NCBI GenBank assembly: GCA_030747075.1
Contig: JASLLL010000043.1
Location: forward strand, 1-16,135
Reading direction: 5' to 3'
Length of the DNA: 16,135 nucleotides
From: Gemmatimonadota bacterium
GTDB taxonomy: Bacteria; ARS69
Shown here: piece after piece, positions 1,107 to 16,135 of the stretch
Position numbering within the stretch: the stretch's first letter is position 1
Layout: the number at the start of each line of letters is the position of its first letter
Translations under genes and position numbers: made by a program
Notes under the pieces: generated by a model
Database searches by the model: none
What the model was told of the DNA's origin: nothing
Seen by the model: only the letters and a program-made list of their open reading frames with translations

Positions 1107-2411
1107 TTACTCGAAGCGAACATCCCTTGCGACCACGGTGAATCCGGATCCGTCGGTGTAGACAATGACATCTCCGCGAACGCCGGAGAGCGCCCGATCC
1201 CGATTCGGAATGACACGATCCGAGGCGTAGTAATCAATGCCCCGATTGCGAAGACGACCCAGCACATACGCGTGCTCCACGCCGCCGTTTTCGCTGATCG
1301 CATTCGTAATCAGGCCCACCGTGGGCCGAATGAAGTCGATATAGCGTTCGCTGTTTGAGTCGTTCGATCCGTGGTGTCCGAGTTTCAGGATGTCCACATC
1401 GAGGAACTCCTGGGAATAGTGGTTCATCAGGAACTGCTCGGACGCAAACTCCGCATCTCCCATCAGAATGGCGGCGAAGTCCCCGTACTGCACGCGGTAG
1501 ACCATGGAGTCGTTGTTGATCACGCTCCCCGCCTCTTCCTGCGCCGCATAGTCCGGGATCAGGAACTCCTTGCGCCCCGCGGACAAGAGGTCCACCCGCA
1601 CGCCGGCACCCCACTGAAGATCCGGATCCGAGATGCTGGACGCGCCCCACTCCTTGAAGCGATGCCCCACCTCCGGGGGCCGCGCGGCCATGGCTTCCAG
1701 CAGATCTTCGTAGGGGCCATTCGTCAGCGTCTTGTCCGTGATGTCCAGAAAGGTGCCCACCGGGAAGTCCGCGAGAATCCCGACGATGTCCTGATAGCTG
1801 TCCCCGTAGAATCCGCCGATGTGATCGTTGTGCACATGGCTCATCGACGCGAAGTCCAGATACGACACGCCCCACCACTGCAGGAACTCACGCACCTCCA
1901 CGGCATCTTCCGGATGTCCGGCATCCACCAGCGTCCGCGTTCCGTCCGGAGCCTCCATGAAGAGTGCGTCTCCCCACCCGACATCGATCATCGCCAGGAC
2001 GAAGAGGTCTTCTTCCGCCACCGTGCCGGTCTGGAAGGTGCCGCCATCCAGGTTCATGGAGGCCTCATTCCCGGCGCGATCCCGCATGCGCAGAAGATAC
2101 GCGTACTCCGCATCCGACGCCGCCGCGACGAGCTTTACGACACCCGCGACCGCAAACTCCTCCGACTGCGAATACGAATGGCGGTGAAGCTCATCCGCTG
2201 CCGCTCCGTAGTCCAGCACCGCCTTCACGGGTTCGTCCGAACTCCAGATGGCATACGCCTGCTGATCCGTGGCCGTCATCACTTCGAAAGAAACCAGAGA
2301 CGGCGCCGTCGTATCTGCGGACGGATCGAAGACGGACTCCTCCGGCCCGCTGCAGGATGCCACGAGGAGAAGGAACGGGAGTACGGCAAGACTCGCAAGT
2401 CGGTGAGCCAT
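1107..2411 (-). CDS. ComEC-like metallo-beta-lactamase-fold lipoprotein
   Basis: A 434-residue protein starting at ATG 2411, with GGAGG (2423-2419) seven bases upstream. Residues 1-20 end in a lipobox, VASC, with Cys20 as the likely lipidation site. Residues about 35-130 resemble a fibronectin-III or purple-phosphatase-N type beta domain (TAPSLVSFEV, then Y.LRMRDRAGN). The hydrolase domain begins near 135. It holds the complete metal motif HVHNDH (192-197), a second-shell GDA at 318-320, and LGHHGSNDS at 344-352, the arrangement of the ComEC/Rec2-type MBL domain. Members of this branch are hydrolases, and the ComEC domain has been linked to nuclease activity, but substrates vary. There are no competence membrane segments, so it is not ComEC itself. 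It lies 38 bp behind the phosphatase, probably in the same transcript. The fold is firm; a nuclease role is inference. Confidence 0.87.
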   Translation of the reverse strand: MAHRLASLAVLPFLLLVASCSGPEESVFDPSADTTAPSLVSFEVMTATDQQAYAIWSSDEPVKAVLDYGAAADELHRHSYSQSEEFAVAGVVKLVAAASDAEYAYLLRMRDRAGNEASMNLDGGTFQTGTVAEEDLFVLAMIDVGWGDALFMEAPDGTRTLVDAGHPEDAVEVREFLQWWGVSYLDFASMSHVHNDHIGGFYGDSYQDIVGILADFPVGTFLDITDKTLTNGPYEDLLEAMAARPPEVGHRFKEWGASSISDPDLQWGAGVRVDLLSAGRKEFLIPDYAAQEEAGSVINNDSMVYRVQYGDFAAILMGDAEFASEQFLMNHYSQEFLDVDILKLGHHGSNDSNSERYIDFIRPTVGLITNAISENGGVEHAYVLGRLRNRGIDYYASDRVIPNRDRALSGVRGDVIVYTDGSGFTVVARDVRFE

Positions 2412-2449: not shown

Positions 2450-3844
2450 CTAGCCGGGGCTGTGCTCCGTGTCAATCGAAGTGCGCGCCCTGGGCCAGGC
2501 CACACCCAGAACATCCCGAAGCCACTGCCCGAAGAGATCGTGCGTGCGGATTCCCCTCGCTTCCCCCGCGCGAACCCCCCAGGCCCGCACCGGCACCGGT
2601 TCTCCCGTGTGCCCGTGAACGCGGGTAGAACGCAGATGGTCTTCATACGGGATGAAGGAGATCCCGAATCGCCCGGACAGAATGCCGCCCAGAGCCGTCT
2701 TTCTGTCGTAATGACTCTCTCCGGTGATCAACCGGTCCAGATCCGCCGCCCGGAGCCCGGTGTGCCGCGCCCCACGGTCAATGACCGGCAGGGCCGCCGC
2801 TTCCAGCGCCGCCGGCGTCCCTTCCCATGATTCGCCACCGAAAACCTCCGCCTCCATACGCGCCACCGACATCGTCACCACGCTCAAGCTCTCCGGAGCG
2901 GCATACTCCATCAGCGTCGGGGAGTCCGTTGCGTGATCCGCCACCACGAGCACAAGCGTGGAGTCCAGATCCACCGTGCCGAGCACCGCTCGAAGCGCAC
3001 GATCCAGCCGAAGCACATTCGCCGCAACTCCCGCTCCGTCGTGTTCATGGCAAGCGATGTCCACATGCGCTTCCTCGGCCAGCAGGAACCACGGAGTTCC
3101 CGACGCCCGCAGCCGTTCGATCGCAGCCACGCACATCTCCGCGAGATCGGGGTCCGCCTCCGAAGAGTCGAGGCTATGCGGCAAGTGCGAATCCGCGAGG
3201 AGCCCCAGCACCGGGCGATCCGTCGGCAGGGCCTCATGCAGATCCTCCACGACCGCCACGCCCGCCACGCGCGCTTCCGCGATGAGATCCCGCTGGTCCT
3301 GACGACGCCCTCCCGCCTCTTCGCCCCGGAAGTGCCGCGCCCCTCCCCCGAGCGCCACCGTGAACCCCGCCTTCACCAGTTGGGCGGCCATGTCGTTCTC
3401 GCGGCCCCGATGATCGACGCGCGCGTAGAAGGGGCCCGGAGTCGCGTGAGTGACGCGCGCCGTTGTGACAAACCCGCACGCTCGTCCTGCTCGACCCAGC
3501 GTCTCGAAGAGCACTTCGGACGAATCCTCCCCCGCCGGGATCCCGATCGAATAGACCGGCGCAAGCATCCCCAGCGACCACGCCGTTGCTGCGGCGGCGG
3601 AGTCCGTGACGCGAGCCCCGGCCGGACGGGTATCCAGGAACCCCACGGTTTCCGCAGTCGAAAACGCCAGCGACTCCCCGCGTGCCTCCGCGACCGCGCG
3701 ACCCAGCGACCATGCGCCCACACCAAAGCCATCTCCGACGAGGAGAACGACATTGGGCGGCCGCCCGGGAACATCCGACTCTCCGGAAAACCCGGCGCAC
3801 GACGCCAGGATGAGCAGCATCAGAGTCCATGCCAATCGTGTCAT
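2450..3844 (-). CDS. Alkaline phosphatase family lipoprotein (PhoA-type)
   Basis: A 464-residue protein. ATG 3844 was chosen because it forms an ATGA overlap with the stop of the upstream permease, follows GGAG by eight bases, and begins a lipoprotein signal (LASC, Cys16). The frame stays open 130 codons further upstream, but that part only shadows the permease gene. Motifs match alkaline phosphatase: metal Asp38 in VGDGFG, nucleophile Ser82 in TDSAAAAT, THATPGPFYAR (132-142), Glu257...Asp262...His266 (EE.HVD..CH), Asp303-His304 in VADHATDS, and His412 in HGHTGEPVPV. All expected zinc and magnesium ligands can therefore be located. The enzyme would release phosphate from monoesters outside the inner membrane. 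Its coupling to a nucleoside-type importer suggests that nucleotides are a substrate, which is inference. The family call is firm. Confidence 0.92.
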   Translation of the reverse strand: MTRLAWTLMLLILASCAGFSGESDVPGRPPNVVLLVGDGFGVGAWSLGRAVAEARGESLAFSTAETVGFLDTRPAGARVTDSAAAATAWSLGMLAPVYSIGIPAGEDSSEVLFETLGRAGRACGFVTTARVTHATPGPFYARVDHRGRENDMAAQLVKAGFTVALGGGARHFRGEEAGGRRQDQRDLIAEARVAGVAVVEDLHEALPTDRPVLGLLADSHLPHSLDSSEADPDLAEMCVAAIERLRASGTPWFLLAEEAHVDIACHEHDGAGVAANVLRLDRALRAVLGTVDLDSTLVLVVADHATDSPTLMEYAAPESLSVVTMSVARMEAEVFGGESWEGTPAALEAAALPVIDRGARHTGLRAADLDRLITGESHYDRKTALGGILSGRFGISFIPYEDHLRSTRVHGHTGEPVPVRAWGVRAGEARGIRTHDLFGQWLRDVLGVAWPRARTSIDTEHSPG

Positions 3845-4713
3845 CGATCTGTCTCCAGCGGTTTGCCAAGTGATGCCGGTGGGCGCGACCTCCCCACAAA
3901 ACCGGCCAATGCAATCATGGTGAGCACATACGGGAGCATCTGCACAAACTGGGTCGGGATGCCGAGTCCCTGAAGGCGGATCTGCAGAGCCTCCGCCAGC
4001 CCGAAGAAGAGGCAGGCCCCCGCAACCGGCAGGGGTTTCCACTTGCCGAAGATCACGGCCGCCAGCGCAATGAAACCGCGGCCCGCGGACATGTTCTTCA
4101 CAAACTGGTGCGTCTCCAGCGCCAGAAAAGCGCCACCCATTCCCGCCAGCGCCCCGGCCAGCACCACCGCCGCGAAGCGAGTTCGCGCCGGATCCACTCC
4201 CAGCGACTCCGCCGTCTGTGGATGCTCGCCGCACGCGCGCAGGCGCAGACCGAAGGGAGTCTGATTCAGGAGAACCAGGACCAGAGGTGGCAGGCAGATC
4301 GCCAGATAGACGAGAGGCGTGAACCCGCCCGGCCCCGAAGCGTCAAAACCGGTGACCAGGGGAGTGTTCGCGGAGGATCCGAAGAGCACATCCATCAGGA
4401 ACTGCGTGAGCCCGACGACCAGCAGATTGAGCGCCACCCCCACGACAATCTGGTCTCCGCGCAAAATGACTCCCGCAAAGGCGTGCACCACGCCCACCAG
4501 CGCCCCCGCGCCGGCCGCGGCAACGACCCCCGCCCATGGGTTTCCCGTGGCACCCGCGACAATCGCCGCGGCAAAGGCCCCGGCAAGGAGTTTCCCTTCC
4601 AGCGCAATGTTCACCACACCCGCCCGTTCAGACAGGACGCCACCCATCGCCGCAAAGAGAAGCGGAGTCGCCATGCGAACGGCCGAGGCCCATGTCCCCG
4701 CGTCCAGGATCAT
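3841..4713 (-). CDS. ABC transporter permease, nucleoside/BMP type (NupQ-like)
   Basis: A 290-residue, strongly hydrophobic membrane protein of the branched-chain/ribose-type permease family that partners BMP-family binding proteins. Family signatures are ERAGVVNIALEGKLL (29-43), the cytoplasmic loop GLRLRACGEHPQTAESLGVD (155-174), which would contact the ATPase, and GRGFIALAAVIFGKWKP (211-227). About eight to nine membrane segments are likely. ATG 4713 overlaps the preceding permease stop as ATGA, with GGAG five bases upstream; its own stop overlaps the phosphatase start in the same way. It is the shorter of two permeases, matching the NupP/NupQ (YufP/YufQ) pair. The substrate cannot be read from sequence; a purine nucleoside is favoured by the family and by the neighbouring deaminase. 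Confidence 0.92.
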   Translation of the reverse strand: MILDAGTWASAVRMATPLLFAAMGGVLSERAGVVNIALEGKLLAGAFAAAIVAGATGNPWAGVVAAAGAGALVGVVHAFAGVILRGDQIVVGVALNLLVVGLTQFLMDVLFGSSANTPLVTGFDASGPGGFTPLVYLAICLPPLVLVLLNQTPFGLRLRACGEHPQTAESLGVDPARTRFAAVVLAGALAGMGGAFLALETHQFVKNMSAGRGFIALAAVIFGKWKPLPVAGACLFFGLAEALQIRLQGLGIPTQFVQMLPYVLTMIALAGFVGRSRPPASLGKPLETDR

Positions 4714-5786
4714 GAGCTCTCCGCCTTTCGCCGGGCGCGCCGCGCGATCAGTCTTCGGGAAACTTCATCTCCAGCGACCACAAACAGGAGAATGCCTGCC
4801 TGCACCACCAGCATCAGTTCCTGAGGAATCCCGGTGAACAGATCAATCTCCACCGCTCCCGCATTCAACACTCCGAAGAGAAGCGCCGCCGCCACGACAC
4901 CCGCCACGCGCACGCGCCCGAGCAGCGCCACGGCAATTCCGAGAAAGCCGACTCCCGACGAGAAGTTGTCGAGGTAGCGATGCCGGAACCCCAGCGCCTC
5001 GTTCACCCCCGCCAGTCCGGCCAGTGCCCCGGCCACCGCCATGGCCGCCACGAGAGTCATCCCCGTCGGCACCCCGGAGGTCTGCGCCGCGCGTTCCCCC
5101 TGCCCGATGGCCCGCACCCGGAATCCCAGCGGCGTGCGGTAGAGAACCCACGCGACCACCCCGGCCGCTCCCAGCGCCAGAAAAAGCGCGGAGTTCGCGG
5201 GGCTGGACGCCGGGACGAGCCTCCCGACAAGCGGGAGGTCTCCCAGACGCGGGATCCACGCGGCCTCTGGCAGGACTGAGGTCTGCGGGATCATCTGGCC
5301 GGGTTCCTTGAAGATGTGGACCGTCAGATACCCGGTCAGGCCCGATGCGATGAAGTTCATCATGATCGTATTGATGACTTCATGAACGCCCAGGCGCGCA
5401 CGGAGAAGTCCCGGGATGGCTCCCCAGACCGCGCCCGCAGCCGCCGCGGCAAGAATGCACAGAGGAACGAGCAGGAACCGCGGCGCTCCCGGAAGATGCA
5501 AGGCCGTGATGGAAGCCGCAAAAGCTCCCACCACCAACTGACCCTCCGCCCCGATGTTGAAGAGCCCCGCGCGGAATGCAAACGCCACCGACAATCCGGT
5601 CAGCGTCAGCGCCGTGGCGTTGAACAGCACATTCCCGAGTCCGTCGGGTGTGGTCAGCCCTTCGGCAAGGACCTGCGCAGCGCGGAGCGGGTTCTCTCCG
5701 ATCACGACGGCGAGAATCCCGCCCAGCACGGCAGCCCCGGCCACCGCAAGCAGCGGGGAGATCAGCCCTCTAAGCGACCTGGTCAT
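4710..5786 (-). CDS. ABC transporter permease, nucleoside/BMP type (NupP-like)
   Basis: A 358-residue inner-membrane protein, the larger permease of the pair. Conserved features are AFRAGLFNIGAEGQL (70-84), GVHEVINTIMMNFIA (133-147) and the coupling loop GFRVRAIGQGERAAQTSG (221-238). ATG 5786 follows GGGAGG by eight bases and lies 17 bases inside the end of the ATPase gene, so the two are probably translationally coupled. The C-terminus is basic (RRLIARRARRK), as expected for a cytoplasmic tail. With the smaller permease it should form the heterodimeric channel of a nucleoside-type importer. Confidence 0.92.
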   Translation of the reverse strand: MTRSLRGLISPLLAVAGAAVLGGILAVVIGENPLRAAQVLAEGLTTPDGLGNVLFNATALTLTGLSVAFAFRAGLFNIGAEGQLVVGAFAASITALHLPGAPRFLLVPLCILAAAAAGAVWGAIPGLLRARLGVHEVINTIMMNFIASGLTGYLTVHIFKEPGQMIPQTSVLPEAAWIPRLGDLPLVGRLVPASSPANSALFLALGAAGVVAWVLYRTPLGFRVRAIGQGERAAQTSGVPTGMTLVAAMAVAGALAGLAGVNEALGFRHRYLDNFSSGVGFLGIAVALLGRVRVAGVVAAALLFGVLNAGAVEIDLFTGIPQELMLVVQAGILLFVVAGDEVSRRLIARRARRKAESS

Positions 5787-7299
5787 CCAGCGTGCCTCCC
5801 GTCATCACCACTCCCAGCGACTCTTCGTCCGCTTCCCCACGCCGGAACTCCTTCGCGATCAGACCGGTGTAGAGGACGACGATCCTGTCCGACAGCATGA
5901 GCACTTCCGACAGGTCCGCGCTCACCAGCAGGATCCCCACTCCCGCATCCCGAAGCGCCAGGATCTCCCGGTGGATGGCCTCCATTGCTCCGACATCCAC
6001 GCCACGGGTCGGATGTGCCGCCACCAGAATCCGCGGCTCACCCTCCGCCTCCCGCGCAAAGACCACCTTCTGTTGATTCCCGCCCGACAACGACTCCGCC
6101 TTCACTCCCGGATCCGCGGGACGAATGTCGAACGTGCGGATTCTCGACTCCGCGTACTCTTTGATCCGCCCCGGATGAAGCGACAGTCCGCTGCGGAACC
6201 GCCCCTGGGCCTCGCGTCCGAGAATCAGGTTTTCGCCCACCGTCATCGGACCCACCAGCCCCCCGAGCACGCGATCCTCCGGAACATGGGCCAGCCCCAT
6301 CCGGCGGATCTCGCCGGGAGAGACCCCCGCGATGCTCTCTCCGCCCAGATGGACTTCCCCGGCAAAGGGCCGCAACCCCCCGAGAATCTCCGTCAGTTCG
6401 CGCTGTCCGTTGCCTTCCACTCCCGCAATGCCGAGGATCTCTCCCGCACGCACATCAAAGCTCACATCCCGAAGACGGCCCGCCGCCCGGCCTCCCTTTT
6501 CGCCCACCGAGCGGAGGGTAAGCACCGGCTCCCCGGGAGCCTGTCTTGGCGTCCCGTCCGGCGGCGCGGGTTCCCGCCCGACCATGAGTTTCGCGAGATC
6601 CCGCTCGGAAGAGGAGGCCGCGTCGCGTACGCCAACCACGCGCCCCGCACGCATCACGGTCACGCGATCCGCCAGTTCCAGCACTTCGCGCAGTCGATGC
6701 GTGATGAAGACGATGGACGCGCCATCCGCGGCCAGCGACCGGAGCGTTTCCATGAGTGCGCGCACTTCCGAGGGCACAAGCACCGCGGTCGGCTCGTCGA
6801 GAATGAGAACACGCGCGCCGCGCATGAGAACCTTGATGATCTCCAGACGCTGACGCTCCCCGACCGAGAGATCCTCCACGGGCGCATCCGGATCCAGGTC
6901 CATGCCGTAAGCCTCCGCCGTCGCCAGGAGTTCCGCGCGGGCACGCTCCCGATCGATCCGGACGCCGCCGCGCCTCGGTTCTTCGCCCAGTATGGCGTTC
7001 TCCAGAACCGTAAACGGGGGAATCAGCATGAAGTGCTGGTGGACCATTCCGACGCCGCTCGTCAGTGCGTCGCGTGGCCCGGCAGGAGCGTGGGACTTAC
7101 CATTCACTTCCATCTCGCCCCCGTCCGGGCGAGTCATCCCGTAAAGAATCCGCATCAGTGTCGACTTGCCGGCGCCGTTCTCTCCGGCAATGGCGTGGAT
7201 CTCTCCCGCGCCGCACTCCAGATCCACTCCATCCACGGCGGTCACGCCGGGGTAGTGCTTCACCATCCCACGCATGGAGAAGGATGCCGGCGCATTCAC
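5770..7299 (-). CDS. ABC transporter ATP-binding protein, two-domain nucleoside/sugar type (NupO-like)
   Basis: A 509-residue cytoplasmic ATPase with two fused nucleotide-binding domains. Domain 1 has Walker A GENGAGKST (39-47), Q-loop Gln88, signature LSVGERQ (144-150), Walker B VLILDEPTA (164-172) and switch His201. Domain 2 has a degenerate Walker A GVEGNGQREL (293-302), signature LSGGNQQKV (404-412) and LVAAHPTRGVD (425-435) in place of a normal Walker B. This asymmetry is typical of the ribose/nucleoside (RbsA, YufO/NupO) class. The start is GTG 7299: it forms a GTGA overlap with the glycosyltransferase stop and follows GAGGAG by eight bases. The frame stays open 35 codons upstream, but that part only shadows the glycosyltransferase. 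It should power the two permeases encoded directly downstream. Confidence 0.94.
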   Translation of the reverse strand: MNAPASFSMRGMVKHYPGVTAVDGVDLECGAGEIHAIAGENGAGKSTLMRILYGMTRPDGGEMEVNGKSHAPAGPRDALTSGVGMVHQHFMLIPPFTVLENAILGEEPRRGGVRIDRERARAELLATAEAYGMDLDPDAPVEDLSVGERQRLEIIKVLMRGARVLILDEPTAVLVPSEVRALMETLRSLAADGASIVFITHRLREVLELADRVTVMRAGRVVGVRDAASSSERDLAKLMVGREPAPPDGTPRQAPGEPVLTLRSVGEKGGRAAGRLRDVSFDVRAGEILGIAGVEGNGQRELTEILGGLRPFAGEVHLGGESIAGVSPGEIRRMGLAHVPEDRVLGGLVGPMTVGENLILGREAQGRFRSGLSLHPGRIKEYAESRIRTFDIRPADPGVKAESLSGGNQQKVVFAREAEGEPRILVAAHPTRGVDVGAMEAIHREILALRDAGVGILLVSADLSEVLMLSDRIVVLYTGLIAKEFRRGEADEESLGVVMTGGTLDDQVA

Positions 7300-8060
7300 C
7301 GCGAGGACTCCTCTCGCTGAATGTCCCACGCCCTTGCGTACACGGCGAACTTCACCATGGAGTGGATCCCCGCAATGAGAAACCCGTGGACCCCGTCGCG
7401 CCATCCGGACTGAACCACGAACTTCCGAAGGAAGGCCGCTGCGGGATGTGCCACAAGATGAACCGGGCGAATCCGTTTCCGACGGGCGCGGTCCGGCCCC
7501 AGGTGCTCCGAATAACGCGCAACGCGGGAGAACGAAGCGGCCAGCGTCGGGTGGGTGTCGTGTTCCAGAGCGCCGGTCAGATTCCCCGGCACGCCATCCA
7601 TGTGCAGCGTCTCATGCCCGGGTGCTCCCCGCACGCAGACACATTCCCTCCGAACCAGACGAAGCTGCGGATCCGGCCACCAGCCCCCATGGCGAATCCA
7701 CCGACCCAGGAACCGGTTCCTTCGACGCACACGATATCCATCCACGGCATCCGGCTTCTCGACGGTGCTGCGGATCTGGCGCGCCAGTTCCCCGGTCACC
7801 ACTTCATCCGCATCGAGTCGAAAGACCCACTCTCCCGTCGTCGCATCCACGGACCGCACAATCTGCTCCGCGAAGTTCCCCGGCCAGGGGATCTCCAGCA
7901 CCTTCGCCCCCGCCCCGCGAGCTTCCTCCACGGTCCCGTCCGTACTCCCTCCGTCGATGACCACCACCTCGTCCGCCCAGCGCACGGACTCGACCGCCTT
8001 GCCGATCCGCCCTCCTTCATTCTGGGCAATCATGCATACGGAGACGGTCGGCGGATTCAC
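7296..8060 (-). CDS. Family 2 glycosyltransferase, LPS-core WaaE/KdtX-like
   Basis: A 254-residue GT-A fold transferase. Residues 5-11 (TVSVCMI) start the first strand. DGGSTDGT (36-43) is the nucleotide-sugar motif, and DADE (83-86) carries the metal-binding DxD. The block RRRNRFLGRWIRHGGWWPD (112-130) and the basic C-terminus (FLRKF, then GW.DGVHGF) are typical of the WaaE-like branch that adds a hexose to the inner core of lipopolysaccharide. The start is GTG 8060, overlapping the upstream stop as GTGA; its Shine-Dalgarno sequence is weak (GGAG 11 bases upstream), so it probably depends on coupling. The family is clear, the sugar and acceptor are not. Its place between the binding protein and the ATPase of an importer is odd (see findings). 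Confidence 0.88.
   Translation of the reverse strand: MNPPTVSVCMIAQNEGGRIGKAVESVRWADEVVVIDGGSTDGTVEEARGAGAKVLEIPWPGNFAEQIVRSVDATTGEWVFRLDADEVVTGELARQIRSTVEKPDAVDGYRVRRRNRFLGRWIRHGGWWPDPQLRLVRRECVCVRGAPGHETLHMDGVPGNLTGALEHDTHPTLAASFSRVARYSEHLGPDRARRKRIRPVHLVAHPAAAFLRKFVVQSGWRDGVHGFLIAGIHSMVKFAVYARAWDIQREESSR
7308..7313 (-). promoter_or_regulatory. Ribosome binding site deciding the ABC ATPase start
   Basis: GAGGAG at 7313-7308 lies eight bases before GTG 7299, inside the last codons of the glycosyltransferase gene. It supports the GTG start over the longer open frame. Confidence 0.7.
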
Positions 8061-9067
8061 GAACGCCCGGTCTCCACGGGAATCTCGATCTCGCCGGCAA
8101 TCACGGAGTCCGAAAGAGCTTGTATCACCTCGAGCATTTCCGGTGTGAGGAGATGGCGATTGTGTTCATCCACCGAGTAACCGACCCCGCCTTCCGCCAG
8201 CCCCAGTTCCAGGAGGCCACCCCGAAACTCCCCGGAATGCGACGCCAGGATGGCCCGGTAGACCGCGTTGTCGACACGCTTGATCATGGAGGTCAGGACC
8301 GTCCCCGGCGCGACATCGTTCTGATTCGCGTCCACACCGATCGCGAAGAGACCTTTCTCGCGCGCAGCCTCAATCACTCCCAGCCCGGTGACGCCCGCCG
8401 CATGGAAAACGACATCCGCACGCTGCCGGAACTGGGAGAGCGCAATCTCCTTTCCGCGCACCGGATCGGTAAACGCCTCCGGGCGAACACCCGCGTACCC
8501 CACGAGAACCCGAGCGTCGGGATTCACGCGTTGCGCCCCCGCGGCGTATCCCGCTTCAAACTTGTGAATCAGCGGAATGTCCATCCCGCCGACAAAACCC
8601 ACCACCCCCGTCTTGGAAGCCATCGCCGCCAGCGCCCCCACGAGAAACGAACCCTCGTTTTCCCGGAAGACCAGTGACACGACATTGGGCATGTCTTCGA
8701 TATACCCGTCGACCAGAACGAAGTGCGTTTCTGGAAAGTCCGTCGCCACGGAACGAATGGAGTCGGTGAACAGGAAGCCCACGCCAACGACGACCTCGTA
8801 ACCGTGAGCCGCCAGCTTGCGAAGACCGACCTCCCGGTCCGAGTCCCCGCTGGGTTCGAACTCGGATGCCACGATCCCCAGTTCCCGGCGGGCCCGATCC
8901 ATGCCTTCGAATGCGGAATCGTTGAAGGAGCGATCTCCCTTCCCTCCGACATCGAACACCATTCCCACACGAAAGGCGGAATCCCCGGACTCTCCGCCGC
9001 CCGAGCCTCCACCGCACCCGGGAAGCAGCACGGCAAGCACCGCCAGCACGGCCATGGTCACTTTCAC
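8057..9067 (-). CDS. BMP/PnrA-family nucleoside-binding lipoprotein of an ABC importer
   Basis: A 336-residue binding protein. The start is GTG 9067, two bases after the upstream stop, with AAGGAG seven bases before it. It gives a short lipoprotein signal ending in LPGC (Cys18), followed by a Gly/Ser-rich linker. FDVGGKGDRSFNDSAFEGM (38-56) is the hallmark BMP-family N-terminal motif. GFLFTDSI (97-104), FVGGMDIPLIHKFEAGYAAG (158-177) and GVDANQN (244-250) match ligand-cleft segments of PnrA-type purine nucleoside receptors. Ligand specificity is inferred from the family. It would be anchored in the membrane and deliver substrate to the two permeases, whose genes follow after an intervening glycosyltransferase. 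Confidence 0.93.
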   Translation of the reverse strand: MKVTMAVLAVLAVLLPGCGGGSGGGESGDSAFRVGMVFDVGGKGDRSFNDSAFEGMDRARRELGIVASEFEPSGDSDREVGLRKLAAHGYEVVVGVGFLFTDSIRSVATDFPETHFVLVDGYIEDMPNVVSLVFRENEGSFLVGALAAMASKTGVVGFVGGMDIPLIHKFEAGYAAGAQRVNPDARVLVGYAGVRPEAFTDPVRGKEIALSQFRQRADVVFHAAGVTGLGVIEAAREKGLFAIGVDANQNDVAPGTVLTSMIKRVDNAVYRAILASHSGEFRGGLLELGLAEGGVGYSVDEHNRHLLTPEMLEVIQALSDSVIAGEIEIPVETGRS

Positions 9068-9069
9068 AA

Positions 9070-10452
9070 TCAGACTCCTTTTCGGGAAGCGAAGGACGAC
9101 GATGCGCACCACCCCGGCAGTTCGGGAGCCGCTCGTTCGAGCAGCGTGGCGGCACATCGGTTGGCGTCGGTGAGCACGGCCGCGCGGTCCAGACGGCACG
9201 GGGCTCCATCTTCCACAAGCAGCTCTCCGGCCACCAGGACGAGCCGCACATCAGACGCCTGCGCCGAATACACCAGCGCCGTCACGGGATCCGTGACCGG
9301 CGAAGCGTGGGCCGTATTCAGATCCACCGCAATGACATCCGCCTCCATGCCCGGCGCCAGGCGACCGACGCGGTCGTCCATCCCCAGCGCTTCCGCGCCG
9401 CCGAGGGTGGCCATCGTGAGGACATCGCGGGCGGAGAGCCTGCCCGGGCCCGCTGTCCACGACGACAGGAGAGCGGCGGCGCGCATCTCCGAGAATCCAT
9501 CCAGCCGGTTGTTGGCGGGAGCCCCGTCACACCCCAGCGAAAGATGGACACCCGCTTCCCGCAGACGGTGTGCGGGCTGCACGCCGGAACCCAGCTTCAG
9601 GTTGGTGCCGGGACAGTGCACGGCACGCGACCCGGACCGTGCAAGAACGGTCACTTCCTCCTCGTCCAGCCAGACGCAGTGCGCAAGAACGGTCCCCTTT
9701 CCGAGGAAGCCGATGTCATCGAAGAAGCACACATTGCGGCGCCCCTTCATCTCCTCCACGGCGCGGCACTCCCGCTCGCCTTCCGAGGCGTGCGTATGGA
9801 GAAGGTACTTTCCTCCAGCCAGCGACACGACTTCGCGGAGGAGCTCGTCCGTGCATGACAGTACGAAGCGCGGCGCAAACGCATACCTCAACCGGCCTCC
9901 CGCCGCGCCGTCCCACTTCTCCGCCAGGTCAAAACTCTCGCGAAGAGAGTCCAGCGTGGTCTCCAGAAGACCGGCGGGTACGCCTTCGCCATCGTCCATC
10001 ATGGCCTTCCCGCCGAACGCCCGGATGCCGGTCTCCTCCAGCACCGTGAAGACTTCTTCGTAGTGATGCGTGGTCCCCATGTCGAGCACGGTGGTCGTCC
10101 CGCCGAGAAGGAGTTCCAGTACGGACAACCGCGCGGAGGCCCGCAGACTCGCGGGATCATGCGCGGCTTCGAGCGGCCAGATCCGCTCCCGCAACCACGG
10201 CAGGAGCGTGCGGTCTTCGGCAAGCCCGCGAAAGAGGGTCTGGCAGAGATGGACATGCGTCTGCACGAGGCCCGGCATCAGCGTCAGCCCGGATGCGTCC
10301 ACCCGGCGCGCATCTGCCGGGGCTTCCTCCGCGAGGTCGCCGCCCACACGCCGGATTCGGCCGTCGACGACCAGAAGGTCGCCCGTCGACTCCTCCCAGT
10401 CCGGCCCTCCGCACAGTATCCGCGCCGCACCCCGCAGGAGAGTGGCCGTCAC
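9070..10452 (-). CDS. Amidohydrolase: purine/deoxyadenosine-type deaminase (SsnA / TRZ-ATZ family)
   Basis: A 460-residue cytoplasmic metal-dependent deaminase of the amidohydrolase superfamily. Metal and catalytic residues are visible: HVH at 66-68 in GLVQTHVHLCQTLFRG, His221 and Glu224 in HTHASE, His258 in VLAHC.WLDEEE, and Asp309 in LGCDGAP. The segment from QTLFRGLAED to IWPLEAAHD is closest, from memory, to proteins annotated as 5'-deoxyadenosine deaminase. SsnA-type, guanine, and MTA/SAH deaminases share the same fold. Start GTG 10452 overlaps the carbamate kinase stop as GTGA and has GGAGG seven bases upstream. Next to YqeC and carbamate kinase genes it occupies the place SsnA has in selenium-dependent purine clusters. 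It would deaminate an imported purine base or nucleoside; the exact substrate is open. Confidence 0.88.
   Translation of the reverse strand: MTATLLRGAARILCGGPDWEESTGDLLVVDGRIRRVGGDLAEEAPADARRVDASGLTLMPGLVQTHVHLCQTLFRGLAEDRTLLPWLRERIWPLEAAHDPASLRASARLSVLELLLGGTTTVLDMGTTHHYEEVFTVLEETGIRAFGGKAMMDDGEGVPAGLLETTLDSLRESFDLAEKWDGAAGGRLRYAFAPRFVLSCTDELLREVVSLAGGKYLLHTHASEGERECRAVEEMKGRRNVCFFDDIGFLGKGTVLAHCVWLDEEEVTVLARSGSRAVHCPGTNLKLGSGVQPAHRLREAGVHLSLGCDGAPANNRLDGFSEMRAAALLSSWTAGPGRLSARDVLTMATLGGAEALGMDDRVGRLAPGMEADVIAVDLNTAHASPVTDPVTALVYSAQASDVRLVLVAGELLVEDGAPCRLDRAAVLTDANRCAATLLERAAPELPGWCASSSFASRKGV
9075..9080 (-). promoter_or_regulatory. Strong ribosome binding site deciding the BMP lipoprotein start
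   Basis: AAGGAG at 9080-9075 lies seven bases before GTG 9067, overlapping the end of the deaminase gene. It selects this GTG over the frame open 44 codons upstream and over the later GTG 9061 and ATG 9055. The chosen start also gives a lipoprotein signal of normal length. Confidence 0.75.
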
Positions 10453-11399
10453 GAGGCATCCTCCGCATCCGGCACGATTCTCGTGCCCGCCTTCCCGGCG
10501 ATCGCATCGAGGAGACCGGGCGGGTCCGTGATCAGCGCCTCTCCTCCGCCGGACTCCACGAACTCCACCGCCGCCTCCATCTTCGGACCCATGCTGCCGG
10601 GGGGGAACTGCCCCTCGGCGTGGTGGGCCTTCGCTTCGGAAAGCGTGACGGTCCGCAGCGGGCGAGCGGACGCCTTGCCGAAGTCCAGAAGCACTTCGGG
10701 AACGCTCGTAACGATGACCAGACGATCCGCGCCCACTTGACGGGCCAGCACGGCGGAGGCGCGATCCTTGTCGATGACCGCTTCCACGCCCTCCAGGCTG
10801 CCGTCACTCCGACGCACCACCGGAATCCCACCGCCCCCGGCGGCGATCACAACCGCACCCGCCTCCACCAGCGAGAGAATGGCCTCCGACTCCACGATCT
10901 CCAGCGGCCTGGGAGACGGCACCACGCGACGATGCCCTCTTCCGGAATCCTCCACGATGTCCCAGCCGCGCTCCACCGCCTGCTTCGCGGCTTCCTCCCC
11001 GGTGTAGAACGGCCCGATCGGTTTGGTGGGATCCGCGAAGGCGGGATCGTCCGGGTCCACGACACACTGCGTCACCACCGACGCCACGGGTCGCTTCATG
11101 CCGCGCCGCACCAGTTCGTTCTGGAGCACCTGTTGCAGCATGTACCCGATGCCGCCCTGCGAGTCCGCTCCGCAGACATCGAGCGGCATGGGGGGGATCC
11201 GGTCGCGCACGGCTTCGTTCCGAAGGACGATGTTCCCCACGATCGGTCCGTTGCCATGCGACAGGATCACGCCGGCCCCGGAGGCAATCCGTTCCGCAAC
11301 ATCTCCCATGACGCGGCGGGCCACTTCCATCTGTGCGTCGATGGTCCCGAGCCCGTTCGCGGGGAGGATGGCGTTTCCACCCAGTGCGATAAGTTCCAT
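10449..11399 (-). CDS. arcC: Carbamate kinase
   Basis: A 316-residue amino-acid kinase family protein of normal carbamate kinase length. It carries ALGGNAIL (5-12), SHGNGPIVGN (47-56), CGADSQGGIGYMLQQ (76-90), the lid-side VVPSPRP (159-165), AAGGGGIPV (186-194), EAVIDKDRASAVLA (206-219) and GSMGPKMEAA (268-277). The usual HGNGPQVG has Ile53 in place of Gln. The enzyme makes ATP and carbamate from carbamoyl phosphate and ADP, the energy step of arginine, agmatine and purine/allantoin fermentation. No arginine deiminase or carbamoyltransferase gene is in view, and the neighbours point to purine use. ATG 11399 matches the usual N-terminus. GTG 11411 (four residues longer) has better Shine-Dalgarno spacing and remains possible. 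Confidence 0.93.
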   Translation of the reverse strand: MELIALGGNAILPANGLGTIDAQMEVARRVMGDVAERIASGAGVILSHGNGPIVGNIVLRNEAVRDRIPPMPLDVCGADSQGGIGYMLQQVLQNELVRRGMKRPVASVVTQCVVDPDDPAFADPTKPIGPFYTGEEAAKQAVERGWDIVEDSGRGHRRVVPSPRPLEIVESEAILSLVEAGAVVIAAGGGGIPVVRRSDGSLEGVEAVIDKDRASAVLARQVGADRLVIVTSVPEVLLDFGKASARPLRTVTLSEAKAHHAEGQFPPGSMGPKMEAAVEFVESGGGEALITDPPGLLDAIAGKAGTRIVPDAEDAS

Positions 11400-11433
11400 G
11401 GCGCGGCCCACTCTCCCGTCTCCCCGCCGGGGG

Positions 11434-12285
11434 TCAGGCCTCGGCGGCAGGCGGACCGTGGACTTCCACCGGGCCGCCCTGGCGATTGTCCCCGACCGCG
11501 ACACGCCGGATTCGCAGCCCGCACTTCGAGAGAAGGATGCGGGCAAACTCCTTCACGGCCTCACGAGCCGGTCCCATCGGAGCCTTGTTCACATAGACCA
11601 GAACCTCTACATCTCCCGGGATCTTCCCGAGAATCCCCCGCGGATGGGAAAGAAGTTCCGCAGCCTTCTCCGCGGTGATGGGAGCACCCCAGGGCAATCC
11701 GAGAAGGTCCTGCACAATCTCCGGGCGATGAACATGGTCGTCGTTCAGTGTGACTCCCAACGCATCCGCTCCAAGAACGATCACGCAGTGCGTCGCGCAC
11801 AGCGGAAACGCGGGCTCACCGAGGCGGTGCCCCTTGACCGACTTCCCCCGGCTCCCGTCCGCTTCGACCACCACATGGTCCCAACTGAGCCTTCCCAGAA
11901 GTTCGCCGAGGTGGTCCGCCGGAAGACCGATGATCTTGTCGCGCATGATGGATCGACCGAGAAAAGTGGCGGGTAGTCCGGCCTCTGCCTCCGCACCCGC
12001 GAGAGCCCGGTCAATCCACCGTTTTCCCGACGCCGAGGAGCGCGACTCCCATGCGGTCCATGTCTGCCCCATCGGATCTTTCTCATCCCAGAAGAGAACA
12101 TCCCGCATATCGGAGAGGTCCTCCATCTTCATGCGCGTGGTGGTCGTGGCGAGCACCCGGCGTCCCTCCTGTCCGCACTCCAGACAAAGGCGTCGGAGGG
12201 TCGTCGTCTTCCCGCCACCACCCACCAGCGCCACGACCGAACGCGACGGAATGCCGAGGCCTTCGGTCAGAGTGAGATAGTCCAT
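11434..12285 (-). CDS. yqeC: YqeC-type selenium-dependent hydroxylase accessory protein
   Basis: A 283-residue P-loop-like protein. GGGGKTTTL (22-30) near the N-terminus, ATTTTRM (46-52), VVVEADGSRGKSVKGH (138-153), a VLGADALG segment (170-177) and VYVNKAP (230-236) are the family pattern of YqeC, annotated as a selenium-cofactor or selenium-dependent molybdenum hydroxylase accessory protein. Its biochemical role is not established. Elsewhere it travels with yqeB, selD, xanthine dehydrogenase-like hydroxylases, carbamate kinase and ssnA. ATG 12285 has GGAGG four bases upstream and lies 11 bp after the aminotransferase stop; carbamate kinase follows after 34 bp. Family assignment is good. Whether selenium is involved here cannot be told, since no SelD or hydroxylase gene is in the window. 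Confidence 0.87.
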   Translation of the reverse strand: MDYLTLTEGLGIPSRSVVALVGGGGKTTTLRRLCLECGQEGRRVLATTTTRMKMEDLSDMRDVLFWDEKDPMGQTWTAWESRSSASGKRWIDRALAGAEAEAGLPATFLGRSIMRDKIIGLPADHLGELLGRLSWDHVVVEADGSRGKSVKGHRLGEPAFPLCATHCVIVLGADALGVTLNDDHVHRPEIVQDLLGLPWGAPITAEKAAELLSHPRGILGKIPGDVEVLVYVNKAPMGPAREAVKEFARILLSKCGLRIRRVAVGDNRQGGPVEVHGPPAAEA

Positions 12286-12296
12286 GCGTCCTCCGG

Positions 12297-13463
12297 TCAG
12301 ACTCCCTGCAACAGTCCCGCCATCTTGTCCAGCGCCTTGTCGATGTTCTCCAGCGAGTTGGCGTAGGACAGCCGGAGATACCCTTCACCCTCCGGGCCGA
12401 ACGAAGTGCCAGCCAGCGCTGCCACGCCCGCCTCTTCCAACAGTCGATGCTGAAGTTCCGAAGCCGGGACACCCGTCCCGGTGATATTCGGGAAGACGTA
12501 GAACGCTCCCTTGGGCTTCACGCAGGTGATCCCGGGAATCGCATTCAACCCCTCGACGATCCGGTCCCGACGCCGACGGAACTCCGCCACCATCGCCTCC
12601 GCTTCGTCCTGCGGCCCGCGAAGAGCCTCGATTCCGGCAAGCTGCGTAAAGCTGGCCGTGCACGAGTTGGAGTTCGTCATGAGTCGGGCCAGATGCGGCA
12701 CCAGATCCTGCGGCATGACGCCATACCCGAGGCGCCATCCCGTCATTGCGTAAGTCTTGGAATACCCCTCCACGACGATCGTCCGGTCCGCCATCCCCGG
12801 GAAGCGGATGATCGAATCATGCGGCTCTTCGTAGACGATCCGCGAATAGACTTCGTCGGCAAGCACCCAGAAGTCATGCTTCTCAGCAAGCTGAGCAATG
12901 GCCTCCAGGTCCGAAGAGGACAGCATGGACCCGCAGGGATTGTGCGGCGAGTTGATGATCAGCATCCGTGTGCGGTCTGTGATCCGCGCTTCCAGATCCG
13001 CGATGTCAAAGGTGAACTCCCGATCTTCGCGAAGCGGAAGAGGAACCGGGCGGGCACCGAAGAAGGAGATGACCGATTCATAGATCGGGAACCCCGGGTC
13101 CGGGTAGATGACTTCATCTCCGGGATTCACGAGAGCCAGCACGGAATAGAAGAGAATCGGCTTCGCGCCCGGTGTGATCACGATGCGATCCGCGTCGACC
13201 GGGACGCCACGATCATTCGAGAAAGTCTCCGCGATGGCCTCGCGGGCTTCGGGAAGCCCTGCGGACGGACCGTAGTGCGTCCACCCGGACTGCATGGCAC
13301 TCACGCCTGCGGCGATCACATTGGACGGCGTATCGAAATCCGGTTCCCCGATCTCCAGATGGATGACCTCTTTCCCTGTGGCCTCGATCTTGCGGGCCCG
13401 CGCCAGCACTTCGAAGGCCGTCTCCGTTCCCAGTCCGTTCATTCGCTCCGCAATGCGCTTCAT
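12297..13463 (-). CDS. PLP-dependent class I/II aminotransferase (aspartate aminotransferase-like)
   Basis: A 388-residue fold-type I aminotransferase of normal length. Signatures are LEIGEPDFDTP (36-46), NSPHNPCG (171-178), ADEVY (202-206) with Asp203 binding the pyridine nitrogen, YSKTYAMTGWR (234-244) with Schiff-base Lys236, and YLRLSYA (362-368) with Arg364 for the substrate carboxylate. It resembles the subgroup Ib/archaeal-type aspartate aminotransferases, but amino-donor specificity is not readable. Start ATG 13463 has an AAGGGG-type ribosome site five bases upstream. It is the first gene of the compact block, preceded by a 159-bp gap and followed after 11 bp by yqeC. It may amino-acceptor-couple nitrogen released by purine breakdown, but this is inference. 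Confidence 0.9.
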   Translation of the reverse strand: MKRIAERMNGLGTETAFEVLARARKIEATGKEVIHLEIGEPDFDTPSNVIAAGVSAMQSGWTHYGPSAGLPEAREAIAETFSNDRGVPVDADRIVITPGAKPILFYSVLALVNPGDEVIYPDPGFPIYESVISFFGARPVPLPLREDREFTFDIADLEARITDRTRMLIINSPHNPCGSMLSSSDLEAIAQLAEKHDFWVLADEVYSRIVYEEPHDSIIRFPGMADRTIVVEGYSKTYAMTGWRLGYGVMPQDLVPHLARLMTNSNSCTASFTQLAGIEALRGPQDEAEAMVAEFRRRRDRIVEGLNAIPGITCVKPKGAFYVFPNITGTGVPASELQHRLLEEAGVAALAGTSFGPEGEGYLRLSYANSLENIDKALDKMAGLLQGV

Positions 13464-13622: not shown

Positions 13623-14918
13623 CTACCCCGCCACGGTGTCGAAGGCGCTCCTCAGACACTGGAGTGCCTGATCGATGTCCGACTCCTCCACGATCAGAGG
13701 CGGCGTCAGTCGCAGCACATTGCCGTACCCGCCTCCCCGCCCCACGAGAAGCCCTTCGTCCTTCGCCGCTTCCATGATGCGCCCCGTCTCGGCGACAGCG
13801 GGTTCCTTCGTCTGAGGATCACGAACCAGCTCGACCGCAATCATCAGCCCCTTGCCCCGGACCTCGCCAATCATCGGGAACCGATCGGCCAGTTCCTCCA
13901 GGCCCTCAGAGAACCGCGCACCCAGTTCCGCGACGCGTGCGGGAAGCCCGCGGTCTTCCACTTCCGCAATCGTCGCGAGAGCCGCCCGGGAAGAAACGGG
14001 ATTCCCGCCGAAGGTGCAGACATTGTTCCCCGAGTACGCGTCCGCAATCTCCGTTCGCGCGATCAGCGCTCCCATCGGGAAGCCGTTCGCCATTCCCTTT
14101 GCGAAGGTCATGATGTCCGGCTTCACGCCCCAGTGTTCAATCCCGAACATATGCGTTCCCGTGCGTCCGAATCCAGTCTGGACCTCATCCGCGATAAAGA
14201 GCCCGCCCTTGCGGTCGAGGATTTCGCGGAGCATGGGGAAGTACTCCGGCGGGGGGGTGATGAACCCGCCCACGCCCTGGATGGGCTCCGCGATCAGCGC
14301 GGCCACGCTCCCGTGGGTCTGCGTGTCGATCACATCCTCCAGATCGCGGGCGCATCGGACTTCGCACGACGGGTATTCCCGCCCGAGCGGACAGCGATAG
14401 CAGTACGCGTTCTGGGCGAAGAGCGTGTTGTGCGGCGCGGAGGTGGGAAGCCTCCACGACGACAGACCGGTCACTCCGATCGCAACCTGGCTTCGTCCGT
14501 GATAGGCGTGCCGGAGCGCGACTATGTCGTCCTTCCCGGTAGCGAGCTTCGCAAGCAGGAGCGCGGTGTCGTTCGCTTCCGTACCGGAGTTCGCGAAGAA
14601 GCTCTTCTCCAGCCCGTCGGGCGTGATCTCCGCCATCTTGTCCGCAAGGTCCAGCACCGGTTCCGTCAGATAGACGGTGGATGTGTGCTGGAGCCGTCCC
14701 ACCTGATCGACGACCGCCTTGTTCACGGCCTCATTGCAGTGCCCGACCTGCACGGTCAAGATCCCCGCGAAGAAGTCCAGGTACTCGCGCCCTTCTTCGT
14801 CGCGCAGGTGCTGCATTTTCCCTTCGGCCACCACCATGGGGTCTTCGTAGTAGTGCTTCACACAGGGGAGGATTCTCTCGGCCTTCCTCTCCGCAAGACG
14901 GCGTCCCTGTTCGGTCAT
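13623..14918 (-). CDS. Class III PLP aminotransferase (alanine-glyoxylate / beta-amino acid type)
   Basis: A 431-residue aminotransferase. VQVGHCNEAVN (56-66), FFANSGTEAND (107-117), AYHGRS (138-143), EPIQGVGGF (211-219), ADEVQTGFGRTG (243-254) with Asp244, and TFAKGMANGFPMGA (271-284) with Schiff-base Lys274 are diagnostic. It is closest in pattern to the AGXT2 group (alanine-glyoxylate, beta-alanine or 3-aminoisobutyrate to pyruvate). A cysteine-rich insert, AYCYRC to SCEVRC (171-189, Cys173, 176, 185, 189), is notable. ATG 14918 has GGAG seven bases upstream and lies 33 bp after the sulfatase-like stop, so the two may be co-transcribed. Glyoxylate, an end product of allantoin breakdown, would be a fitting acceptor here, but that is only inference. 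Confidence 0.9.
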   Translation of the reverse strand: MTEQGRRLAERKAERILPCVKHYYEDPMVVAEGKMQHLRDEEGREYLDFFAGILTVQVGHCNEAVNKAVVDQVGRLQHTSTVYLTEPVLDLADKMAEITPDGLEKSFFANSGTEANDTALLLAKLATGKDDIVALRHAYHGRSQVAIGVTGLSSWRLPTSAPHNTLFAQNAYCYRCPLGREYPSCEVRCARDLEDVIDTQTHGSVAALIAEPIQGVGGFITPPPEYFPMLREILDRKGGLFIADEVQTGFGRTGTHMFGIEHWGVKPDIMTFAKGMANGFPMGALIARTEIADAYSGNNVCTFGGNPVSSRAALATIAEVEDRGLPARVAELGARFSEGLEELADRFPMIGEVRGKGLMIAVELVRDPQTKEPAVAETGRIMEAAKDEGLLVGRGGGYGNVLRLTPPLIVEESDIDQALQCLRSAFDTVAG

Positions 14919-14951: not shown

Positions 14952-16135
14952 TCAGTCCACATAACCGATGGAGCGCAGGCGGTCTTCTACTTCCGGATCC
15001 AGCGGCCCCTCCGGCGGGACGACTCTCGCGTCCGCAATCCAGCGTTCCAGTTCCTCGAACAGACGCACCGGCTCCCCGGCGGGAGGCAGTGCCTGATACT
15101 GCAGTTCCCCCGGGTCCGTCCTCGGATCCGTCCAGCCCCGCTGCCTCGCGCCCGGGACCACAAACACCGCCGCTTCCGGGCTTCGCGCCACCCGCGGCTT
15201 GCGAAGGTTGGCGTACTCTCCTTCTCTCTCGGCGTCCCAGGGCATCGACGCAACCCCGAAGACCGGCAGCCCGCTTCCACCCCGCGTCCAGTCGGCGAGA
15301 TTCCCCGCTTCTTCCGGACGACTCCACTCGACCTGAAGTTCCCCGAGGATGGCCGCGGGGACATCGATCGTCCGTACCATGGCGTCGGCAAGGCCCGCGC
15401 CGAAGTTCGGACTCCCGCGCACCAGCAGCGGAACGCGGACATCCTGATCGAAGACGGACGGACCGTGCCGGAAGGGCAGCCCCCGTTCACCGAGGCTCTC
15501 CCCGTGATCCGAGGTCAGCACCACCATGACGCTCTCTTCGAGTTCCAGCTCCCGGAGGAAACCGCCGATCTCGCGGTCCAGCCCGTCGATCTCCGCCAGG
15601 TAGAGCGACGCGACATGCCGCGTCCCGCCACCGTCCAGAAGCGACGGATCATCCCACGCTGCGCGGAGAAACTCCATGGACCCGTTCGCCGGGCCGGAGT
15701 ATCCGGTGGCACGGAGCGCAAGGTCCACGGAGTTCGGTTCGTACGGGAAGTGCGGCTCGAAGAGATGCACCCACAGGAACGCGCGCCCTTCGCGCTTCGC
15801 CCACCATTCGCGGGCCGGTGGCAGCGTCTCCGCGGCAGGCCGCCACCCCTGATCGAGCGGCACATCCCGCACCGTTCGAGAGTCGTACGGATCGAATCCC
15901 TGCCCGAGATTCAGTGAGCGATCGAGGGCGGCGCTGGACACAAACGCTCCGGTCGAAAACCCCGACTCGCGGAGAATCTCCGCCAGCGTCTCGACATCCT
16001 CCGGCACATACCACCCGTTCCGCGGCACGCCGTGCGTGGTGGGCCACAGGCCGGTGAGCATGGAAGTGTGCGACGCAAGGGTGGTGGGTGAGGGAGAGTA
16101 GGCGCGGCAGAACTGCATCCCCCCCCGGAAGAAAC
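14952..16135 (-). CDS. Sulfatase-like hydrolase, alkaline phosphatase superfamily (5' end outside window)
   Basis: The frame enters from the window edge; five in-frame residues (FFRGG) precede the Met at 16118, and RGG.QF.RAYSPSP is a normal internal segment of these proteins, so that Met is not the start. About 393 residues are visible. TLASHTSMLTG begins at 16082, WVHLFEPHFPYEP reads as the second conserved block, and TSDHGESLGERG (about 188 codons after the nucleophile site) supplies the metal Asp-His. In place of the formylglycine core Cys/Ser-x-Pro-x-Arg there is Thr-Leu-Ala-Ser-His, so it is unlikely to be a classical sulfatase; a phosphodiesterase, phosphotransferase or phosphonate-type hydrolase is possible. 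The end SIGYVD is also typical of this group. The N-terminal metal site and any signal peptide are not visible. Confidence 0.85.
   Translation of the reverse strand, partial: FFRGGMQFCRAYSPSPTTLASHTSMLTGLWPTTHGVPRNGWYVPEDVETLAEILRESGFSTGAFVSSAALDRSLNLGQGFDPYDSRTVRDVPLDQGWRPAAETLPPAREWWAKREGRAFLWVHLFEPHFPYEPNSVDLALRATGYSGPANGSMEFLRAAWDDPSLLDGGGTRHVASLYLAEIDGLDREIGGFLRELELEESVMVVLTSDHGESLGERGLPFRHGPSVFDQDVRVPLLVRGSPNFGAGLADAMVRTIDVPAAILGELQVEWSRPEEAGNLADWTRGGSGLPVFGVASMPWDAEREGEYANLRKPRVARSPEAAVFVVPGARQRGWTDPRTDPGELQYQALPPAGEPVRLFEELERWIADARVVPPEGPLDPEVEDRLRSIGYVD

Follow-up and report, generated by a model that had tools for sequence, protein, structure and literature searches.

The contig JASLLL010000043.1 of an uncultured Gemmatimonadota bacterium carries a block of 11 genes, probably an operon for the uptake of nucleosides and the recovery of energy in anaerobic, selenium-dependent purine degradation of the reductive uric-acid type, the ring-breaking core of which lies at a second locus. 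The window (the whole stretch of DNA analysed) is this entire contig, C43, of 16,135 bases. The genome, G000, comprises 2.67 Mb in 61 contigs and is recorded as 100% complete. The family is represented by 5 genomes in total; G002, G003 and G004 are the comparison genomes. The novelty is one of arrangement: the pathway is a known one, and the block does not represent a new type of system. It physically links nucleoside uptake to that section of the recently elucidated anaerobic uric-acid pathway to which YqeC and carbamate kinase belong. It also provides a natural case of YqeC without YqeB, in which the role of each accessory protein can be asked.

Organization of the operon

The genes of the window were called by codon-usage scoring (high-GC DNA). 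All called genes are on the minus strand. The block extends from position 13463 to position 1107 and consists of co-directional, nearly gapless genes, listed below in 5' to 3' order.

12297..13463, minus strand: class I aminotransferase (AT1), opening the conserved block; PF00155, 1.4e-75
11434..12285, minus strand: YqeC, accessory protein of the selenium cofactor (SDMH); TIGR03172, 135.3 bits (cut-off 73.05); PF19842
10449..11399, minus strand: carbamate kinase (ArcC/YqeA); TIGR00746, 378.8 bits (cut-off 358.25)
9070..10452, minus strand: amidohydrolase-superfamily deaminase (AmdH) of the 5'-deoxyadenosine/5'-methylthioadenosine (MTA)/S-adenosylhomocysteine (SAH) deaminase type; PRK07228
8057..9112, minus strand: BMP/PnrA-type substrate-binding lipoprotein; PF02608, 7.9e-69 (scored on the longer frame 8057-9199)
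7296..8060, minus strand: GT2 glycosyltransferase, amid the importer genes; PF00535, 3.5e-17
5770..7275, minus strand: double-domain ATP-binding cassette (ABC) ATPase, NupO/RbsA-like; PF00005, two stretches
4710..5786, minus strand: importer permease 1; PF02653, 2.2e-45
3841..4713, minus strand: importer permease 2; PF02653, 1.4e-39
2450..3820, minus strand: alkaline phosphatase with a lipoprotein-like signal (exported); PF00245, 7.2e-50
1107..2411, minus strand: metallo-beta-lactamase (MBL)-fold lipoprotein, relative of the ComEC C-terminal domain; PDB 9ic4, 2.6e-11

Overlaps of 4 bases are found between the carbamate kinase and AmdH genes, between the BMP and GT2 genes and between the two permease genes; the ABC ATPase and permease 1 genes also overlap. 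The remaining intergenic gaps are of 11-38 bases. This spacing is operon-like. The original prediction had placed YqeC, carbamate kinase, an amidohydrolase deaminase, a PnrA importer and a phosphatase in one tight block at 2450-13463. All these families are found there, on the minus strand. The proposed extent holds as far as it goes, but the block continues to 1107 and includes the MBL lipoprotein gene.

YqeC carries the P-loop GGGGKT. The carbamate kinase gene is the sole copy of the genome (single match in a genome-wide search). No matches were obtained when genome contigs were scanned with a single YqeC sequence, or viral contigs for carbamate kinase. The best NCBIfam match of AT1, an archaeal aspartate aminotransferase, is below cut-off.

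The deaminase had been predicted to be of an SsnA/deoxyadenosine type. AmdH passes only the model PRK07228 (5'-deoxyadenosine deaminase), and does so marginally (524.6 vs a cut-off of 522). The assignment to SsnA is rejected by score (TIGR03314, 127.7 vs 455.5; PRK07203, 133 vs 444), and only the deoxyadenosine half of the prediction is kept. Its nearest relatives in the PDB are 3lnp (uncharacterised), 7ww2 (8-oxoguanine deaminase) and 4f0r (MTA/SAH deaminase). The metal-ligand motifs HVH, HTH, AHC and CDG are all present. AmdH is classed as a 5'-deoxyadenosine-deaminase-type enzyme, the exact substrate of which cannot be named from sequence.

The gene set of a PnrA-type importer is complete: a PnrA-like binding protein, a double ATPase and two permeases. 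The BMP gene is the only one of the genome. In comparisons with PDB entries, its product scores highest with Lbp (7x0r, 209.7 bits) and PnrA (2fqw, 161.6), vs 68 with 3s99 and 89 with AtzT (6pi5), which places it closest, by sequence, to the nucleoside binders Lbp and PnrA. The equivalents of PnrA Asp27, Phe36, Phe186 and Asp238 are conserved. Phe36 and Asp238 are presumably ligand residues, and 3s99 and AtzT are taken here to be nucleobase binders. Asp27 and Phe186 have been described (PMC7093131). The importer is predicted to be specific for purine nucleosides.

The alkaline phosphatase has the nucleophile motif TDSAAAATA. The MBL lipoprotein has the metal motif HVHNDH and also matches ComEC, both in the PDB (30bt, 2.9e-10) and by TIGR00361 (1.4e-21, below cut-off). 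Many MBL proteins are not nucleases. A function of this one as an extracellular nuclease is plausible but unproven.

Conservation in the family

In G002, which belongs to another genus of the same family, the complete order is found, from the aminotransferase to the MBL gene. The proteins encoded from the aminotransferase to the permeases are 59-76% identical to those of the window (permease 1, 71%; permease 2, 76%), and the phosphatase is 53% identical. Of the MBL gene, the N-terminal part is found at the same place. In G004 (third genus), the contig holds the genes from the aminotransferase to the ABC ATPase, without GT2. G003 has, on a short contig, the genes of the deaminase, the BMP protein and the ABC ATPase, again without GT2. 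G002 and G004 both have AT1 in the corresponding position, with 75-76% identity, and their ABC ATPases are 62-67% identical to that of the window. Wherever YqeC was found in the family (three genomes), it shares an operon with the importer, which bears out the predicted association of the two in this lineage.

The order is conserved across G002, G004 and G003; the block is therefore an inherited unit. Chance can reasonably be set aside, since a second genus (G002) retains this gene order and a third (G004) the first half of it. The GT2 gene is present in G002 and missing at the corresponding place in G003 and G004; it is therefore probably an optional passenger.

Purine-breakdown core elsewhere in the genome

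The core cluster is carried by another contig, C4 (C4:125145-136443, about 11 kb). It encodes a selenium-dependent xanthine dehydrogenase (Se-XDH; TIGR03311, 883.5 vs a cut-off of 830.45), in which selenium itself is predicted, together with YgeW (581 vs 500 bits) and YgeY (559 vs 321 bits). SsnA is the best match of a further hydrolase (268 bits, below the cut-off of 444). Two PALP-family enzymes (fold-type-II pyridoxal phosphate (PLP) enzymes, lyase-like) and a short YgfK complete the cluster. The order Se-XDH, SsnA-like hydrolase, PALP, PALP of C4 is the same in G004, where it is followed by YgeW. In G002, xanthine dehydrogenase, YgfK, YgeY and YgeW genes are side by side.

SelD is encoded at G000:C4:62873-63799 (364 bits vs a cut-off of 125). 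Its gene has an in-frame TGA in a CAG[U] motif; SelD is itself a selenoprotein, and the organism therefore very probably uses selenocysteine. The genome also encodes a xanthine dehydrogenase, two purine nucleoside phosphorylases and one MTA phosphorylase (the phosphorylases over cut-off). A dihydropyrimidinase/hydantoinase is encoded on contig C9 (618 vs 393 bits). Directly before it, a GltD-like gene (L063:8085-10840) matches positions 441-837 of the YgfK model (229 bits), a region that the short YgfK of C4 lacks; it is possibly half of a split YgfK, or PreT.

These molybdenum (Mo) hydroxylases and ring-opening enzymes support the purine catabolism that had been proposed from the window. From the list of genes whose search had been recommended, xanthine dehydrogenase-like proteins, SelD, hydantoinase, YgeW and YgeY were found; YqeB and a YgeX equivalog were not.

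Proposed pathway

In E. coli, XdhD and YgfK reduce uric acid, SsnA and HyuA open the rings, YgeW and YgeY remove the ureido groups, and YgeX then releases pyruvate; the carbamate kinase YqeA belongs to the same cluster (PMC12507026).

For the present genome we infer a pathway of this type, including every substrate, the co-regulation of the genes and the nuclease step; directly observed are the gene families, their layout over two loci and their conservation in related genomes. The ComEC-like, nuclease-type lipoprotein and the alkaline phosphatase would turn external nucleic acid or nucleotides into nucleosides, which the PnrA-type ABC importer would bring into the cell. The deaminase would convert adenine nucleosides to inosine types. 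The purine nucleoside phosphorylases encoded elsewhere would release the base. Xanthine dehydrogenase and the selenium-dependent Mo hydroxylase would act next, YqeC helping with the selenium cofactor. YgfK, SsnA, hydantoinase, YgeW, YgeY and the PLP lyases would then open the rings. From YgeW-derived carbamoyl phosphate, the carbamate kinase of the window would make ATP.

Opposing evidence and alternative explanations

Several results weigh against this proposal. One concerns YqeB, for which a search gave no match in any of the 5 family genomes; as a positive control, the same search gave matches over cut-off in 3 of 4 YqeC-bearing genomes from other lineages. In the literature, only YqeB and YqeC jointly are taken as the marker of the selenium-cofactor trait (PMC5029168). 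In C. difficile, yqeB gave a phenotype, and loss of yqeC by itself left growth unaffected (PMC11448449). The genome encodes SelD, YqeC and a selenium-type Mo hydroxylase, and falls outside the strict YqeB plus YqeC definition of the trait because YqeB is absent. Three explanations are conceivable: in this family YqeC suffices, the function of YqeB is taken over by a different protein, or the Mo hydroxylase is active with no selenium cofactor. The core itself deviates: only the N-terminal half of YgfK was matched on C4 (399 vs 835 bits), and a profile search of the PALP genes of the core gave no YgeX equivalog match. Relatives of the hydantoinase in G002, G003 and G004 are located in pyrimidine-degradation clusters (gene names read from sequence); the C9 enzyme may therefore serve pyrimidines. 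The operon (C43) and the core cluster (C4) are on different contigs. Scans of the window for sigma-70 promoters and terminators gave nothing above chance, and no sigma-70-like promoter was found. Lastly, contig C2 (L183:5379-9181) holds in a row an arginine deiminase-like gene, an ornithine carbamoyltransferase (OTC) gene and a gene for an antiporter-like membrane protein. The row is conserved in G004; the ArcA-like match (407 bits, below the cut-off of 489) adjoins a strong OTC match, and the two genes are also paired in G003.

Given this arginine deiminase-OTC pair elsewhere, the carbamate kinase may be shared with the arginine route. The block could then be a shared-purpose operon for general energy or nitrogen supply, not for purine degradation, in which the kinase mainly completes the arginine deiminase route. 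The lack of a carbamate kinase gene beside the pair, together with the single genomic copy in the window, speaks for this explanation, which is nonetheless unlikely: G002 keeps the kinase in the operon though no ArcA was found in that genome. Moreover, a carbamate kinase gene is located beside those of YqeC, YgeY, YgeW and Se-XDH in a Chloroflexi locus (L137), and yqeA is part of the E. coli cluster. Somewhat less probable still is a salvage function, by which the importer and the deaminase would supply nucleotide synthesis with recovered nucleosides and by-products of S-adenosylmethionine (5'-deoxyadenosine, MTA, SAH), YqeC and the kinase being incidental. The identity of the one model that AmdH passes would suit it, as would the MTA and purine nucleoside phosphorylases. 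It fits poorly with the persistence of YqeC, carbamate kinase and deaminase together in three genera, with the AmdH-related deaminases encoded near YqeC in Desulfovibrio (L100, 369 bits) and Haloarcula (L149, 283 bits), and with the large purine-breakdown core.

The least probable alternative is that the importer carries another ligand of the BMP family (e.g. a vitamin-like compound or a nucleobase derivative) and not nucleosides. In NCBIfam, all four importer components (BMP protein, ATPase, permeases 1 and 2) have a putative B6 transporter as their best match, in each case far below cut-off. Against it stand the top scores of the BMP protein with Lbp and PnrA, the alignment of the key PnrA ligand residues, and the presence of an exported phosphatase, a deaminase and an SDMH gene in the same operon.

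The proposed purine-degrading operon can be extended to a more specific reading, in which the selenium-dependent Mo hydroxylases of this family would be matured by YqeC without YqeB and a chain leading from outside to inside would allow growth on external nucleic acid under anoxia. The putative chain would consist of the exported ComEC-like nuclease, the phosphatase, the nucleoside importer, the deaminase, selenium-dependent ring reduction and the carbamate kinase. Both this maturation and this chain are put forward tentatively, and the combination is more doubtful than the purine-degrading operon itself.

YqeC loci outside the family and related systems

In a survey of 80 YqeC loci, YqeB was found within the stretch in 41 and a Mo hydroxylase in 31. 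Outside the family, four surveyed loci include an ATPase and two importer permeases: L085 (Actinomycetota), L103 and L150 (Holophagaceae) and L137 (Chloroflexi, NupOPQ-type). A BMP protein was seen in 3 of these 4. In these loci the importer is at most 10 kb from YqeC and a selenium-type Mo hydroxylase. Four such neighbourhoods were observed vs 0.19 expected from the background BMP density of 55 genomes (Poisson P about 5e-5 for four and 0.001 for three independent cases; L103 and L150, both from Holophagaceae, are related to each other; the density refers to BMP genes, whereas the Chloroflexi case was recognized by its ATPase and permeases). A neighbourhood survey of YqeC and BMP proteins had been suggested in the original prediction; the association recurs beyond chance, and an importer beside YqeC is not unique to this lineage.

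The binding proteins differ in group. L103 and L085 encode binding proteins that come nearest to 3s99 and AtzT (scores vs 3s99 of 409 and 320 bits, respectively), whereas that of the window is PnrA/Lbp-like; with the ligand assumed above for 3s99 and AtzT, the L103 and L085 proteins would be of nucleobase type, not of nucleoside type. The binding protein of L150 does not classify clearly into either group. Given this recurrence outside the family and these different groups, the coupling of BMP-type importers with the SDMH pathway probably arose more than once. Unlike in the window, YqeB adjoins in L103, L150, L085 and L137, and no exported phosphatase or MBL gene was found in them. The PnrA-type nucleoside version with an exported phosphatase was seen, among the 80 loci, only in this family. 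A literature search gave no description of BMP importers in selenium-dependent purine clusters.

The E. coli yqe/yge/ygf/ssnA cluster (XdhD-YgfK-SsnA-HyuA-YgeW-YqeA-YgeY-YgeX) has in common with this genome YqeC, carbamate kinase, YgeW, YgeY, a YgfK homologue, an SsnA-like hydrolase and a selenium-type Mo hydroxylase. In the present genome, by contrast, the genes are split over at least 2 loci, YqeB is lacking, the Mo hydroxylase is of the TIGR03311 type, YgfK is short and the PALP enzymes are not YgeX equivalogs. Here a nucleoside ABC importer and an exported phosphatase are encoded beside YqeC and carbamate kinase; the E. coli cluster has a xanthine/uracil permease.

Of all surveyed loci, that of Propionivibrio dicarboxylicus encodes the proteins most closely related to the C4 core (L098: Se-XDH, 1005 bits; PALP1, 671; YgfK, 617). 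This locus shares with the core a short YgfK and paired PALP enzymes. It differs from the window by YqeB and an NCS2-like permease (sequence reading), and holds no importer operon or carbamate kinase. P. dicarboxylicus is a cultured bacterium and a candidate for laboratory work.

The Treponema PnrA and Borrelia BmpD importers share with the window BMP the binding-protein family and the ligand-contact residues. In the Borrelia model a nucleotidase acts before import, as proposed here. The importers of both genera serve salvage, whereas that of the window shares its operon with catabolic and selenium-cofactor genes.

Other genes of the window

An LVIVD-repeat protein and a sulfatase-family protein are encoded on either side of the block (window 3-926 and 14952-16118); the surroundings are cut by the contig ends. 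One further gene lies upstream of the block:

13623..14918, minus strand: class III aminotransferase; PF00202

This gene is rejected as a member of the block because it is not conserved with it in relatives. Its product is 53-54% identical to the aminotransferase of the apparently full pyrimidine-degradation clusters of G002, G003 and G004, which suggests a role in pyrimidine breakdown. The dihydropyrimidinase is encoded on C9, away from this aminotransferase; pyrimidine breakdown may therefore be scattered in this genome.

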